The notes under the pieces: generated by a model
What the model saw: the letters and a program-made list of their open reading frames with translations, nothing else
The model's database searches: none
Told to the model about the DNA's origin: nothing
Program-made: the position numbers and the translations under genes
Assembly: GCA_024278555.1 (NCBI GenBank)
Contig: JAJRSX010000080.1
Coordinates: forward strand, 1 to 6,594
Reading direction: 5' to 3'
DNA from: a bacterium
Lineage (GTDB): Bacteria; CG2-30-53-67; CG2-30-70-394
DNA: 6,594 nt
Part shown: positions 1 through 6,594 of the stretch, in pieces
Position numbering within the stretch: position 1 is the stretch's first letter
Layout of the letters: every line of letters begins with the position of its first letter

Positions 1-302
1 ACCACGACCACGCCGGAGACCGCCGCCCGGGCCATGGTCTCGGCCACCTCGGTGAGCAGCATGGCCGGGGTGACGGTCACCACGTCGCGGACCATCACCT
101 GGCGCGCCAGGAGCCCGTGGGTGAGGCGGCTCACCGCGTGGGCGTAGGCGAGCTCGTAGAGCTCACGAAAGTCGCCGGTGGTGATGTCGAGGTAGCCGGG
201 GAGACCGCGCATCGCCGCGACCACGTCTTCGTCGGTGATCTCCAGCAGCCGCGCCAGGCCGCGGCAGAGGTCGTTCTTCGGTCGATCCACGGGCTCCGTC
301 AT
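1..302 (-). CDS. CBS-domain protein, 5' part only (runs off the left edge)
   Basis: The first 100 codons are present, starting MTEPVDRPKN; the rest is outside the window. Residues about 10-63 form a predicted helical N-terminal module that includes the stretch MRGLPGYLDIT (31-41). From about residue 66 the sequence ARQVMVRDVVTVTPAMLLTE, followed by an alternating hydrophobic SGVVVV, is a typical start of a CBS domain (beta strand, helix, beta strand). CBS pairs usually bind adenosine nucleotides or SAM and act as sensory modules in cytosolic or membrane proteins. The start is well fixed: an ATG with GGAGGT eight bases upstream. The gene lies 371 bp downstream of the kinase stop on the same strand, with its own candidate promoter and a palindromic element between, so it is probably transcribed separately. 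What follows the first CBS motif, and therefore the full function, cannot be seen. Confidence 0.85.
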   Translation of the reverse strand, partial: MTEPVDRPKNDLCRGLARLLEITDEDVVAAMRGLPGYLDITTGDFRELYELAYAHAVSRLTHGLLARQVMVRDVVTVTPAMLLTEVAETMARAAVSGVVV

Positions 303-310
303 CGGGCACC

Positions 311-316
311 ACCTCC
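311..316 (-). promoter_or_regulatory. Shine-Dalgarno site of the CBS-domain gene
   Basis: On the minus strand this reads GGAGGT, eight bases before the ATG whose first base is at 302. It is a near-perfect ribosome binding site and supports the chosen start for a gene that is cut off by the window edge. Confidence 0.85.
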
Positions 317-420
317 GTTCAAAGCCGTCTGCTGCGCCCACCTCGTGCGGCCTGCGCGACGACCGGAAAGAAAACAACGTAGATCCAATCGCCTTTTGTT
401 TGCAATGGGTACGGGGTCTA

Positions 421-673: not shown

Positions 674-3600
674 TCAACCGCGCGGTTCCGCCTTTGGCTC
701 CACGGTCCACCGGGCGAGGGCCTCGACGATCACTTCACGCTTGACCGGCTTGCTCACGAAGTCGTCCATGCCGGCGTCGAGGCACCTCTCGCGATCGCCC
801 TGCATGGCGTTGGCGGTCATCGCGATGATCGGCGTGTGGCGCCCCTGCCCCTGGCGGCGGCGGATCTCGCGGGTCGCCTCGTAGCCGTCCATCTCCGGCA
901 TCTGGCAGTCCATGAAGATGGCGTCGTAGCGGTTCGCCTCCACCGCCGCCACCGCCTCGACGCCGTTGGCGGCGGTCTCGACCCGGTGGCCGAGCTTGTT
1001 GAGCAGGGCGAGGGCGACCTTCTGGTTCACCACGTTGTCCTCCACCACCAGGATCCGCAGCCCCTCCGACGGTGACCGCGCTCCGTCGCCGACCTCCGAT
1101 GTGGGGGCGCTCGCGGTCGGGATCGAAGGCGGGGCCGGCGCCCCCTCGGTCCCCCCGTCCGGATCGTGGGAGAGGGCGCCGCCCGCGAGGAGCGCATCGC
1201 GTAGCTGCGACGGTTTGAACGGCCGGGTGATCCGCCGGACCGACTTGCACCCATCCTCCTGCACCACCTGCCCGGCCAGGGGGACGGACGCCACCACCCG
1301 CGTGTCGCTCAGCCCGGTGTCACAGGCCACGGTGCGGGCCAGGGGTGTACCGCCGTCGTCGGTCATCCGGCTGTCGATCACCGCGAAGCCGAAGGGGGCG
1401 CCGCCCTCGGCCGCACCGCGCAGTACCTTGATGGCCTCGGCGGTGGTGGCCACCTGCTCGGGGGAGAGCCCCCAAGCGGTAAGCTGGGTGGCGATGGCGC
1501 GGCGATGGGTGACATTGGCATCGGCCACCAGGACCTGGACGCCACGCAGATACTCGGGCAGACCGGCGGCCGGGGCGGCGCTCTCCGCCCGGCCACAGCG
1601 CACGGTGAACCAGAAGGTGGAGCCTACCCCCGCCTCGCTCTCCACCCCGATGTCGCCGCCCATCAGCTCCGCAAGCTGCTTGGAGATCGCCAGCCCCAGG
1701 CCGGTGCCGCCGTACCTGCGGGTGGTGGAGGCGTCGACCTGGGAGAAGGTGGCGAAGAGGCGGTCGCGCCGATCCTCGGGGATGCCGATGCCGGTGTCGC
1801 GCACCTCGAAGCGCACCACCACCGCGTCCGGTCGAGTGGAGACGCACCGCACGCGGATCTCCACCTCCCCCGCCTCGGTGAACTTCACCGCGTTGCCCAC
1901 CAGGTTGTTGAGGACCTGGATGAGGCGGCCGGGGTCGATACGCAGGAGGCTCGGCAGGTGGGGGTCGATGGAGCAGATGAGCTCCAGCCCCCTCTCCTGG
2001 CACCGGTGGGCGAGGAGGTCGAGGTTGTCCTCCAGGAGGGTAGTGAGGTCGCAGTCGATCGACTCGATCTCCAGCTTGCCCGCCTCTACCTTGGAGAAGT
2101 CGAGGATGTCGTTGATCACCGTCAGCAGCGACTCGGCCGACTGGGCCACGCTCTCCGCGAAGTCGCGCTGGGTCTCGTCGAGGGCCGTCTCCAGGAGGAG
2201 GTTGCTCATCCCGAGAACGCCGTTCATCGGGGTGCGGATCTCGTGGCTCATGTTGGCGAGAAACTCCGCCTTCATCCGGCACGCCTCGACCGCCTCGTCG
2301 CGTGCCGCGGCCAGCTCCTGGTTGGCGGCGGCAAGCGCGGCCGCGGCGCGCTCGCGCTCCGCCTCCGCCGCCTTGCGCTCGGAGGTGTCGCGGAAGACGA
2401 AGACCGCCCCCTCTATCTCGCCGTCGTCGTTGCGAATCGGGTTGCTGGTGTACTCCACCGGGAAGCTGCCCCCATCGCGCCGCCCGAAGATGTCGTCCTC
2501 CACCCGGTAGGTCTGGCCGTCCCGCGGCGCGGTACAGATGTGGCACGTCTGCCCGCACCGATCCTTGTCTGCGCCGCACTCGGGACGAAAGACCTTGCCC
2601 ACCGGCTTGCCGGCCATCGCCCCCGTGGTCCACCCCAACATCTGTGCCGCCGCCGGGTTGGCGAAGGTGATCCGTCCCTCACGATCCACGCCGCAGATCC
2701 CCTCCCCTGCCGACTCGAGGACCTGGCTGTTGCGACCGCGCAGGGTGGAGAGGGTACGGAGCTGGCGCTGGATGGCATGGCCGATAAGAACTGCGAGGAA
2801 GACGACGATGCAACCGCCGGTCGCCGCCAGAGCCACCATGCTGCGCCACGCCTCCGCCACCCGCGCCTCAACCTCGGCGGAGAGGGCGTTCATGTGCTCG
2901 CGCACGAGACGGCTGAGCTCCGCACGCGCCGACTCCATCCGCCCGCGCAGGAGGTTGAGGCGGCCCTCCAGGCGGCTCCGCTCGGCCGACAGGTCGAGAT
3001 AGGCCTGCCGGAGGGTGTAGAGGCCACCGGTGCCCGGCATCAAGGGTTGACCCTCTGCCCCCTCCACCCAACCGTGGCCGAAGAGGGAGTCCACCACCGC
3101 CTCCACCAGCCCGGCGGGGATCGCCTCGTCGAGGTCGTCTCTCCCCTGGAGGAGGTTGATCTCCCGACGCAGTCGATCGAGACTCGGCCGGATCCGGTTC
3201 TCCTTCAGGTCGACGAGGCCGTCCCTGTTGTCTTCGCCCGCCAGCCGTTCGGTGAGGCGACCGAGCTCGGCCAGCTCGCGCTGGATCGCGTCCAGGCTGT
3301 GCAGCGGCCCACCCCCTTGGGCGGCGACCAGGTCGCGGGCGAGGCGGTTGGCCTGGTCGCCGGTGGCGTGGCGAAAGCGGCGGACCATCACCGCCTCACG
3401 CAGGCGCTGCCGCCCCGCCAGGGAGTCAAGCCACGCCTGGAGCTCGGCGAGCCGCTGGCGCCCATCATTGAGGGTGGTGTGGTGGTCCACGTCCGCCGCC
3501 ACCGGCGCAAAACGGCTCCTCCAGCCCCGTGCCGCCTCGCGCAGGGAGGTGAGCTCGGTGACGATCTCGTCGACCTCGCGGGCGGCGACGGTGGGGGTGC

Positions 3601-3925
3601 CGGCCCCGAGGGTGGCGCGCAGGAGGGCAACCTGTTGTCTGAGGGCGGCGATGGGATCGCCTTCACCGGCCACCTCCTCACCGCCATTGGGGTCGAGGAG
3701 GTGGTCCACCTCGGCCATCGCCCGGATGGTGAGGACGCGTATATGGTTGAAGGTGGCGGTGGCATTCCGCTGCTGTTCCAATAGCGCCTCGCCCTGGCGG
3801 TGCAGGTCGGCGTTGAGCCAGCCGACCGTGGCGTAGACGAGGGCGCCGGTGGCCAGGACACACCCGACCATGCCCCAGAAGAGGGTAAGGACGTGGTGCT
3901 CGCCCACCGGCCGCAAGCAGGTCAT
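674..3925 (-). CDS. Membrane hybrid histidine kinase, TorS-like layout (PAS, HisKA, HATPase, two receivers)
   Basis: An inner-membrane sensor kinase of 1083 residues. Membrane segment 1 spans about 12-35 and segment 2 about 363-385. Between them lie about 325 mostly helical, Arg/Leu/Glu-rich residues, taken as the periplasmic sensor. A PAS domain follows (about 398-515) with no room for a HAMP domain, then a coiled coil (about 516-550). HisKA carries HEIRTPMNGVLGM with phospho-acceptor H561. The HATPase has its N-box Asn at N678, DTGIGIP (710-716) and GGTGLGL (739-745). Receiver 1 (about 795-915) has D851 but a weakened acidic pair (D802, A803) and R901 where Lys is expected. A Pro/Ala/Ser linker (about 917-953) leads to receiver 2 (956-1073), which is intact: E962/D963, D1006, T1037, K1059. 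No Hpt domain follows. The ATGA overlap with the upstream binding-protein gene means translational coupling and suggests that protein delivers the signal, as TorT does for TorS. The ligand and output regulator are unknown. Confidence 0.93.
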   Translation of the reverse strand: MTCLRPVGEHHVLTLFWGMVGCVLATGALVYATVGWLNADLHRQGEALLEQQRNATATFNHIRVLTIRAMAEVDHLLDPNGGEEVAGEGDPIAALRQQVALLRATLGAGTPTVAAREVDEIVTELTSLREAARGWRSRFAPVAADVDHHTTLNDGRQRLAELQAWLDSLAGRQRLREAVMVRRFRHATGDQANRLARDLVAAQGGGPLHSLDAIQRELAELGRLTERLAGEDNRDGLVDLKENRIRPSLDRLRREINLLQGRDDLDEAIPAGLVEAVVDSLFGHGWVEGAEGQPLMPGTGGLYTLRQAYLDLSAERSRLEGRLNLLRGRMESARAELSRLVREHMNALSAEVEARVAEAWRSMVALAATGGCIVVFLAVLIGHAIQRQLRTLSTLRGRNSQVLESAGEGICGVDREGRITFANPAAAQMLGWTTGAMAGKPVGKVFRPECGADKDRCGQTCHICTAPRDGQTYRVEDDIFGRRDGGSFPVEYTSNPIRNDDGEIEGAVFVFRDTSERKAAEAERERAAAALAAANQELAAARDEAVEACRMKAEFLANMSHEIRTPMNGVLGMSNLLLETALDETQRDFAESVAQSAESLLTVINDILDFSKVEAGKLEIESIDCDLTTLLEDNLDLLAHRCQERGLELICSIDPHLPSLLRIDPGRLIQVLNNLVGNAVKFTEAGEVEIRVRCVSTRPDAVVVRFEVRDTGIGIPEDRRDRLFATFSQVDASTTRRYGGTGLGLAISKQLAELMGGDIGVESEAGVGSTFWFTVRCGRAESAAPAAGLPEYLRGVQVLVADANVTHRRAIATQLTAWGLSPEQVATTAEAIKVLRGAAEGGAPFGFAVIDSRMTDDGGTPLARTVACDTGLSDTRVVASVPLAGQVVQEDGCKSVRRITRPFKPSQLRDALLAGGALSHDPDGGTEGAPAPPSIPTASAPTSEVGDGARSPSEGLRILVVEDNVVNQKVALALLNKLGHRVETAANGVEAVAAVEANRYDAIFMDCQMPEMDGYEATREIRRRQGQGRHTPIIAMTANAMQGDRERCLDAGMDDFVSKPVKREVIVEALARWTVEPKAEPRG

Positions 3926-5175
3926 CGCCGCCTCCCCACCAGCCTCGCCACGGTCGCCCAGTCGATGGGGACAAAGCGGCCGTCACGCAGAACGGTGGGC
4001 CACACCCGGTGGCACGCCTGGTGCTCCGTCGGGCCGAGGCGCAGGGGGGTGCCGAGGCCGAGGTCGAATTCGCCGAGCCCCTCCAGTGCGTTGATCAGGA
4101 CCTCCCGCGACGGCACCCCGCCGATGCGCTCGAGGGCGGCCAGGAGGATGCGTGTGGCGATGTACCCCTCCAGGGCACCGAAGCTGTCCGTACCGTTCGG
4201 GTCGATGCGCTCCATGTCGGCGTGGAAGTCGCGCACCAGGGGGAGGTCGGTATCGCCCGGGTAGGGCACCACCTGGGTGGTGACCACCCGGGCGTGGGTC
4301 CGGCCCAGGGCGAGGGCCAGCGGTGCGCTCCCCACGAAGGAGACGTTGAGGAAGAGGGCGTCGAGACCCGACTCCTCGGTCAGGCGGATGAACTTGGCAC
4401 ACGGCTGGTACGCCCCCACCATGATCACCGCCCGCGGCGACGGCTCGACCAAGAGCAGCTCCGCCAGGGCGTTCTCCACCGCGTCCGTGTTGCGCTCGTA
4501 GCGCACATGGTGGATCCGGTTCTCGTCGGCCAGGCCGTGGCGCTTGAGGGCGGCGATCCCGCCGGCGAAGCCGGCGTCGCCGTAGCCGTCGCGCTGGGTG
4601 AAGAAGGCGATCTCCTCCGGCCGCAGACGGCCGCGGTCGATCAAGGTGTCGACCATCGCCGCGGTCTCCTCCGCGTAGCTGGCGCGGTAGTTGATCACGT
4701 AGCGCTCCGGCGGCCTCCGTCGGAGGATTCCGGCACCGGTGAAGGGGGCGAACAGCAGGGTCTTGCGCTGCACCGCGATCGGCATAGCGGCGATCGCCGT
4801 GGGCGTGCCCACGTTGCCGATGACCGCCACCACCCCCTTCTTCTCGATCAGCCGCCGCATGTTCGGGGCGGTGCGCGACGGCTCGTAGCCGTCGTCGAGG
4901 GCGATCAGGCGAAGCCGCCGGCCGTTGACCCCACCGGCCTCGTTCGCCCGCGCCAGCCCCGCCTGGACGCCGTGGAGCATGTTCTGCCCGAGGTCCATGG
5001 CCGGCCCGCTGAGGGCGGTGGACATGCCGAGGAGGGTCTCCGCCCTCGCCGCCGCGGAAGGCAGCGAGAGGGTAGCGACGAGAAGGAGCGACAACACCAC
5101 CCGGCGGCTACCGCACGGCCCCCTCGGAACGGCGCCGGCGGCCCGCTCGCGTGGATGCACAAGGATGGGCCACAT
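3922..5175 (-). CDS. Periplasmic ABC-type substrate-binding protein (LivJ/Peripla_BP_6 type), probable sensor partner of the kinase
   Basis: A 417-residue exported binding protein. An N-region with SRR (23-25), a hydrophobic core about 26-40 and the cleavage site ARA|E after residue 45 form a signal peptide. There is no lipobox Cys, so the product should be soluble in the periplasm. The mature part starts like the leucine/amide-binding family: TALSGPAMDLG (53-63), ANEAGGVNGRRLRLIALDDG (77-96), then a VIGNVGTPTA loop (118-127) and FTGAG (145-149), regions that line the ligand cleft in this fold. RASYAEE (164-170) and FFTQRDGYGDAGF (191-203) follow. No permease or ATPase gene is adjacent; the kinase gene overlaps it by 4 bp, which favours a TorT-like role in signalling rather than uptake. 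The start is uncertain: no Shine-Dalgarno precedes the ATG, and the N-region before the double Arg is unusually long, so a GTG at codon 6, 26 or 27 is possible. Confidence 0.9.
   Translation of the reverse strand: MWPILVHPRERAAGAVPRGPCGSRRVVLSLLLVATLSLPSAAARAETLLGMSTALSGPAMDLGQNMLHGVQAGLARANEAGGVNGRRLRLIALDDGYEPSRTAPNMRRLIEKKGVVAVIGNVGTPTAIAAMPIAVQRKTLLFAPFTGAGILRRRPPERYVINYRASYAEETAAMVDTLIDRGRLRPEEIAFFTQRDGYGDAGFAGGIAALKRHGLADENRIHHVRYERNTDAVENALAELLLVEPSPRAVIMVGAYQPCAKFIRLTEESGLDALFLNVSFVGSAPLALALGRTHARVVTTQVVPYPGDTDLPLVRDFHADMERIDPNGTDSFGALEGYIATRILLAALERIGGVPSREVLINALEGLGEFDLGLGTPLRLGPTEHQACHRVWPTVLRDGRFVPIDWATVARLVGRRR
3931..3937 (-). promoter_or_regulatory. Shine-Dalgarno site of the hybrid kinase, inside the upstream gene
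   Basis: The minus strand reads GGGGAGG five bases before the kinase ATG (first base 3925), inside the last codons of the binding-protein gene. It fixes the kinase start and shows that the 4-bp overlap is a real reinitiation arrangement. Confidence 0.8.
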
Positions 5176-5373: not shown

Positions 5374-5458
5374 GTCGGAGCGAGCTCCCGCTCGCGAAAC
5401 AGGCCCGAAGGGCCTGCCGCGCCCGCGGCACGGATCGCCGGCGGGAGCCGGCTCCTAC
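5374..5458. repeat. Pair of inverted REP sequences (BIME) with intervening hairpins
   Basis: One 25-base REP lies on the minus strand (5458-5434, GTAGGAGCCGGCTCCCGCCG then GCGAT). The other lies on the plus strand (5374-5398, GTCGGAGCGAGCTCCCGCTC then GCGAA). They match at 19 of 25 positions. Both fold into a 6-bp stem with a TCCC loop, and four of the six differences are two compensating base-pair changes, so the fold is conserved. Between them lie two more hairpins: CAGGCCC-GAA-GGGCCTG (5400-5416) and GCCGCG-CC-CGCGGC (5416-5429). The GTAGGAGC head resembles the REP families of Pseudomonas and other Gammaproteobacteria. The TAG stop of the SAM hydrolase gene is the TAG of that head. No T-run follows, so it is not a standard terminator. 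Confidence 0.8.
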
Positions 5459-6237
5459 CAGCGGACCGCCACCGGTGTGCCGCGGTTGATGCCGAGGACG
5501 GCGCCCGCGGCGCCGTTGCGCGCGGCGATCTCCAGGCGGCCGGTGGCGCCGATGAGGGCGACCAGCGCGCCGTCGGCCACCTCGCCGTAGGTGCGGGCGA
5601 GGCCGCGCACCTCCCGGCCGGCGACGGTGACCCGCACGGCGGCCGGGTCCGGGCTGGCGAGGGCGGCGGCGGGGATGGAGGTGGTGCAGTTGCCGAACCG
5701 GTCCACCTGCACCACCTCGCCGTCGACGCCGCCGGCCAGCAATTGCGCGGCGGGCAGCGCCACGACCACCGGCGCGGCCACCGGCGGGCCGAGGTCGTCG
5801 AGGCTCCCCCCGGCGAGGAGGTGGGCGGCGGCCGGGGCGAAGAGGTCGCGGCCGTGGAAGGTGGGGGCGACGATGGCGCGGGCGAAGCGGCCGGCGCGGA
5901 TCGCGTGGGCCCGCGCCCCGGGGAGGGCGAGGAGCGGGGTGAGCAGGCCGTTGTCCGGGCCGACCGCGAGCTGCCCCTCGGCGGCCACCGCCAGGGGCAG
6001 GCGCGCCGTGCCGACCCCCGGGTCGACCACCGCCAGGTGGACGGTCCCCTGCGGGAAGTGGGGGAGGATCGACTCCAGCGCCAGGCAGCCGCCGAGGATG
6101 TCCCCCGGCTCGATCGCGTGGGTCGCGTCGACCACCGTGGCCGCCGGGACCAGGGAGAGGAGCACCCCCTTTACCTGCGCCACGTAGGTGTCAGCGAGGC
6201 CGAAGTCGGTCAGAAGGGTGACGAGGGGCGGGGCCAT
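5455..6237 (-). CDS. SAM hydrolase (S-adenosylmethionine hydroxide adenosyltransferase, DUF62 family)
   Basis: A 260-residue cytosolic enzyme, close to the usual length of the family, whose members use an activated water to split S-adenosylmethionine into adenosine and methionine. Family motifs appear in order: TLLTDFGLADTYVAQVKG (7-24), VVDPGVGTARLPL (70-82), VGPDNGLLTPL (92-102), TFHGRDLFAPAAAHL (126-140) and VDRFGNCTTSI (178-188). D72, R79 and H128 match the Asp-Arg-His triad of the hydrolases, and at 260 residues it is shorter than the fluorinases and chlorinases (about 280-300). Threonine-serine replaces the common Thr-Asn in the C-terminal FGN motif. The start follows the first family motif closely (MAPPLVTLLTDFG), but the ribosome site is weak (GGGTG, 11 bases upstream). 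It ends inside a REP pair 279 bp before the binding-protein gene, so a shared function with that operon is not implied. Confidence 0.93.
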   Translation of the reverse strand: MAPPLVTLLTDFGLADTYVAQVKGVLLSLVPAATVVDATHAIEPGDILGGCLALESILPHFPQGTVHLAVVDPGVGTARLPLAVAAEGQLAVGPDNGLLTPLLALPGARAHAIRAGRFARAIVAPTFHGRDLFAPAAAHLLAGGSLDDLGPPVAAPVVVALPAAQLLAGGVDGEVVQVDRFGNCTTSIPAAALASPDPAAVRVTVAGREVRGLARTYGEVADGALVALIGATGRLEIAARNGAAGAVLGINRGTPVAVRW

Positions 6238-6506: not shown

Positions 6507-6594
6507 ATGAAGCGGGCTACCACGCAGACGATCGGAGTGGACGTGAGCGACCGGAAGAGCCGGATTTGTGTCCTGCCGGTGGAGCTGCGTGATC
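6507..6594 (+). CDS. IS110-family transposase (DEDD recombinase), 5' part only
   Basis: The 29 visible codons begin MKRATTQTIGVDVSDRKSRI and continue CVLPVELRD. The TIGVDVSDRKS...CVL pattern is the first strand of the RuvC-like DEDD domain at the N-terminus of IS110-family recombinases; D12 would be the first catalytic aspartate. These enzymes excise and insert their element through a circular intermediate, guided by a bridge RNA in the IS110 type. The gene diverges from the SAM hydrolase gene and is the only one on the plus strand in this window. No terminal inverted repeats are expected for the family, so the left end of the element cannot be fixed; it must lie between about 6238 and 6500. 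Whether the full gene is intact cannot be seen. Confidence 0.85.
   Translation, partial: MKRATTQTIGVDVSDRKSRICVLPVELRD

Follow-up and report, generated by a model that had tools for sequence, protein, structure and literature searches.

An overlapping gene pair for a Peripla_BP_6 solute-binding protein and a hybrid histidine kinase with a predicted TorS-like sensor domain: a probable sensing system independent of transport

The stretch of DNA analysed here (the window; 6,594 bp) is one entire contig (C49) of a 3.06-Mb genome, 100% complete, from a rare phylum, so that its gene neighbourhood is truncated at the contig ends. It contains, both on the reverse strand, a gene for an exported solute-binding protein of 417 aa (3922-5175) and a gene for a hybrid sensor histidine kinase of 1083 aa (674-3925), which share the four nucleotides of an ATGA stop/start overlap (3922-3925, reverse strand), as the initial annotation had reported. 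Its description of the two as fused was loose, because they are separate genes. The strong Shine-Dalgarno site that it placed inside the overlap does exist (GGGGAGG, 3931-3937, reverse strand, 5 nt before the kinase ATG), but it is located within the end of the binding-protein gene, just upstream of the overlap. The overlapping arrangement is more than chance, because it recurs in dozens of relatives. The other seven genomes of the phylum that were examined lack the gene pair, which suggests its acquisition or loss rather than an origin within the phylum.

A search for RNA families in the window found none. Upstream of the gene pair lies a gene for a SAM hydroxide adenosyltransferase (5455-6237, reverse strand; PF01887, PF20257). 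The contig ends cut a CBS-domain protein fragment (3-377, reverse strand; E 1.1e-4, narrowly short of the curated threshold) and the apparent start of an IS110-type transposase (6507-6594, forward strand; 29 aa, no Pfam match). Just 3' of the kinase stop, positions 494-655 hold direct and inverted copies of GACGCATTGGGGTC and CAAAGCAAGACCTGACCCCAA, nested within one another, together with a hairpin of 38 nt; similar repeats occur on contig C171 of the same genome, and the whole looks like a dispersed REP-like element.

The binding protein matches Pfam Peripla_BP_6 with an E value of 1.9e-50 and 172.9 bits, against a gathering cut-off of 31.7, and carries the motifs VGTPT, RASYxxET, SFVG and TQVVP of the sensory subfamily described below. 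Its N-terminus (5041-5175, reverse strand) is signal-peptide-like, with a hydrophobic stretch (hydropathy peak at residues 25-43) and an ARA/ET cleavage-like site, in keeping with the export that had been claimed for it. The best relative in the PDB is 4kv7 (E 1.8e-115, about 54% identity in alignment A1), the closest relative of solved structure, a 'probable leucine/isoleucine/valine-binding protein' of Rhodopirellula baltica. That structure contains the binding protein alone, and no description of it was found in the openly accessible literature. The genome has one other Peripla_BP_6 match, a long open frame (G000:C156:12284-13420) that possibly encodes an LpoA-like protein.

The kinase, all of whose features lie on the reverse strand, has two hydropathy-predicted transmembrane segments (residues 12-30, 3836-3892, and residues 363-381, 2783-2839), 333 residues apart, which enclose a periplasmic sensor domain (residues 36-362; 2840-3820). 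Pfam recognises a PAS domain (residues 400-513; 2387-2728), a HisKA domain with an MSHEIRTP box (2078-2275), an HATPase_c domain with N, G1 and G2 boxes (1598-1936) and a C-terminal receiver domain (residues 958-1070; 716-1054), and the catalytic motifs of HisKA, HATPase and receiver are those of a hybrid histidine kinase. A region at about residues 796-915 (1181-1540), which has no Pfam match, is probably a degenerate receiver, as its motifs keep the D and K positions.

When the sensor domain was searched on its own against Pfam and PDB sequences, nothing beyond chance was obtained, and the Pfam TorS_sensor_domain model (PF21689) matched neither the window sensor, even at an E value of 10, nor anything else in its genome. 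However, a template-free AlphaFold2 model, built from a 30-sequence alignment, is all-helical with a pLDDT of 90.1, as had been predicted for the region between the two membrane segments. The top six Foldseek matches of this model among PDB structures are all TorS. VIA-align superimposed the model on TorS 3o1j with a Z-score of 17.4 and an rmsd of 2.7 over 262 residues, ahead of McpS (HBM; 14.2), the second-ranked family, and of designed bundles (14.0); helical bundles reach middling Z-scores by chance, but the TorS match is higher than the rest and spans the domain. When a profile built from 17 sensors like that of the window was aligned with one of E. coli TorS plus MCP sensors, the result was 98.2% (E 3e-14). 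In a second model, for which the sensor of a Thalassolituus MCP partner was used, TorS was again the leading match (Z 17-18), although here the designed bundles followed more closely (16). On these models the periplasmic region has a TorS-like fold, and the TorS layout noted in the initial annotation is thus supported by structure prediction and not by topology alone. The conserved loop FGxGxxxxxxxQxxxxGxGGLY (residues 282-303, 3017-3082; alignment A4), a loop also in the AlphaFold2 model, stands before the last long helix; because of the helix lengths in that model it would form the membrane-distal tip, and it is a candidate docking site.

Relatives of the binding protein were collected by a scan with a six-sequence profile and one motif (RASYxxET), and the best 80 of at least 587 were kept, which span about a dozen phyla. 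The conservation of the gene pair across genomes, which the initial annotation had proposed as a check, is borne out: a receptor gene is located directly downstream in about 56 of these 80 (counted by hand and including ones cut by contig ends), and the median spacing between binding-protein and partner genes is -1 nt (52 pairs). Besides the partner in the window, 50 partner proteins were classified, namely 23 histidine kinases, 18 MCPs, one GGDEF-EAL protein and eight others (three CheA-like Hpt/HATPase proteins, one with an Hpt domain, two truncated proteins and two sensors with no recognised output domain). At twelve further loci a Ser/Thr kinase and the binding protein are encoded together as one fused gene, and another three loci have DUF4388-membrane-binding-protein fusions. 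The deposited annotation of a Terrarubrum plasmid shows the same layout, with overlapping genes for a binding protein and an MCP, and MCP versions are also present in cultured Chromohalobacter, Vreelandella and Bradyrhizobium. No relatives were found in viral contigs. Six of the 51 partner proteins match the Pfam TorS sensor model outright, and in most partners the two transmembrane segments are about as far apart as in E. coli TorS. Nevertheless, a TorS-like partner is not universal, because the partners of the early-branching relatives L043, L096 and L125 have short sensors, their membrane segments lying about 130-140 residues apart.

On the binding-protein tree the window protein groups with the Nitrospirota and Desulfobacterota kinases. 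Outputs cluster on this tree, yet at least 11 output changes are needed, so that a strict descent of the outputs with phylogeny was rejected. Distances between binding proteins correlate with those between the partner sensors (r = 0.77, 43 pairs, in part a reflection of common descent), and none of 2000 permutations gave a value as high.

Several of the loci are unusual in their own right. The Ser/Thr kinases that have the binding protein as their extracellular half (L042 6992-9280, L088, L097, L098, L100, L102, L104, L105, L108, L114 and L115) fall within one starred group of the tree, and the DUF4388 fusions (L086, L090 and L091) are their neighbours. A Legionella operon (L074 7959-14190, and L075) encodes the binding protein, a hybrid kinase, a single receiver and a HisKA-receiver-adenylate/guanylate cyclase protein. 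Two loci (L066 3582-4760 and L123 1527-3449) have genes for TorS-like sensors with no recognised output domain adjoining the binding-protein gene, and at L072 (7974-10454) a single hybrid kinase gene is preceded by a tandem pair of binding-protein genes of the family.

Alignment to LivK places Thr124, Gly147 and Ser279 of the window protein at the positions of LivK Ser79, Thr102 and Glu226; the roles of the LivK residues are those established for LIV-binding proteins, Glu226 being the residue that holds the amino group. The Glu226 position is Ser and the Thr102 position is Gly in all 85 of 85 sequences, and thus, judged from the alignment, the canonical alpha-amino-acid site is absent from the clade. 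In spite of the replacement of Glu226 by Ser, the pocket is unusually conserved, the mean identity being 87% at 13 pocket positions (placed by homology) versus 57% in the other columns, across all output types. This suggests a single, non-canonical type of ligand that is common to the phyla and to the outputs.

The interpretation that is considered highly probable is that the two genes encode a dedicated, transporter-independent solute-sensing pair, in which the binding protein signals through the TorS-like kinase. The exported binding protein would bind a small solute in the periplasm, and one of its liganded states would dock, in the manner of TorT on TorS, at the membrane-distal portion of the sensor with its two storeys of helices. 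The resulting shift of the membrane-spanning helices, transmitted via the PAS domain, would set the autophosphorylation of HisKA. The phosphate would then pass to the attached receiver and probably on to an Hpt protein and a response regulator encoded elsewhere, since no Hpt domain was found in the kinase itself; such an external phosphorelay is possible, because several other proteins of the genome contain Hpt domains.

In a variant of this mechanism, different solely in the signal's sign, the kinase would be locked in one state by the apo form of the binding protein until ligand frees it. The sign cannot be fixed from sequence, in which nothing speaks against the variant, and TorT-TorS complexes have been crystallised both with and without ligand (according to the titles of 3o1h and 3o1i). 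It is regarded as the less probable version, though a serious one. It is improbable that the helical sensor binds the ligand itself, like McpS (HBM) or NarX, and that the binding protein only modulates the response or delivers the ligand. The structural matches that come next after TorS, the sensor domains of McpS and PilJ, are indeed direct binders of small ligands or close to such binders, but TorS structures rank first for both sensor models, and the binding protein has stayed with the sensor while output and phylum changed.

Evidence on the role of the binding protein also comes from the transporter genes. None was found in the window, in agreement with the initial annotation, although the neighbourhood is cut at the contig ends. 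The complete genome has no match to PF02653 (BPD_transp_2, the LivH/LivM permease family), while the same search gave matches in 12 of 14 control genomes; as far as gene content tells, the binding protein cannot serve a LIV-type importer in this organism, because the LivH/LivM permease is missing. Homologues are not regularly accompanied by ABC permease and ATPase genes either: no LIV transporter gene occurs within 2.7 kb in any of 84 relatives, whereas among more distant Peripla_BP_6 genes 18 of 26 lie within 1.5 kb of one, a comparison that is conservative because these control genes were taken from other genomes with short flanks. It should be noted that adjacency alone does not prove interaction, because in the assays applied to AgtS and AruS of P. 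aeruginosa neither kinase was bound by the binding protein encoded next to it (PMC11113362). The proposal that the protein is an ordinary LIV-type ABC component, with permease genes elsewhere and an incidental position before the kinase gene, could appeal to this precedent, to the usual role of Peripla_BP_6 proteins as transporter components and to the records that name relatives 'ABC transporter substrate-binding protein', but it is very improbable and largely refuted for the window genome by the missing permease, the absence of LIV genes near relatives, the several kinds of receptor that adjoin or are fused to the binding protein, and the replacement of the LivK Glu and Thr throughout.

Beyond the single locus, the highly conserved pocket together with the repeated output changes raises the possibility of an ancient module, a Peripla_BP_6 protein with a TorS-like receptor, that would sense the same non-amino-acid type of ligand across about a dozen phyla while its output was repeatedly exchanged between histidine kinase, CheA-like kinase, chemoreceptor, c-di-GMP enzyme and Ser/Thr kinase. 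This broader proposal is put forward tentatively, with a chance somewhat short of even. The relatives are annotated as ABC transporter components, which would be wrong for the whole clade. Receptors that sense through a binding protein are technically hard to identify (PMC11113362), and the motifs VGTPT, RASYxxET, SFVG and TQVVP could be used as a marker for finding them. With MCP versions present in cultured Chromohalobacter, Vreelandella, Bradyrhizobium and Terrarubrum, screening ligands against just one purified protein could be enough to deorphan a large number of receptors.

Branched-chain amino acids are the ligands mostly predicted for Peripla_BP_6 proteins (PMC9602780). LivJ and LivK share this Pfam fold family with the window protein, but the latter has no transporter neighbours, occurs in a genome with no LIV permease and has lost the Glu and Thr of amino-acid binding. 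Binding-protein-dependent receptors of the output classes found here are known singly (PMC9602780), and the genes of known binding-protein-kinase couples are adjacent in 10 of 11 cases (PMC11113362). The openly accessible literature yielded nothing on TorS-like sensors outside TorS or on binding-protein/MCP operons of this clade. Nor was any account found there of a wholly sensory Peripla_BP_6 subfamily with a TorS-type receptor and repeated changes of output. In LuxP/LuxQ and other binding-protein-dependent kinases, the binding protein likewise reports its ligand state to the kinase, but LuxQ senses by tandem PAS-like (PDC) folds and not by helical bundles (PMC8534201).

The closest parallel is TorT/TorS, which senses TMAO in E. 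coli and Vibrio and likewise combines a periplasmic binding protein with a hybrid kinase that has a two-storey, all-helical sensor. The sensor of TorS, which detects its signal through TorT, consists of two stacked four-helix bundles, and signalling proceeds by piston-like shifts (PMC8534201). In both systems the membrane segments are about 310-330 residues apart, and TorS is the best structural match to the model of the window sensor. In contrast, TorT belongs to Peripla_BP_1 and has no BLAST similarity to the window protein, which is consequently not placed in the TorT family; TorS of E. coli has HAMP and Hpt domains and no PAS domain, whereas a Pfam search of the window kinase found a PAS domain and neither HAMP nor Hpt; E. 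coli TorS also lacks the conserved loop before the last helix; and torS and torT are divergent genes, while the window pair forms one overlapping operon. The pair is not filed as a member of TorT/TorS because it departs from that system in binding-protein family, HAMP, Hpt and Pfam sensor model. Thus, the likeness to TorT/TorS drawn in the initial annotation does not extend to membership, but as an analogy it appears largely right: the window pair would work like TorT/TorS without belonging to it.
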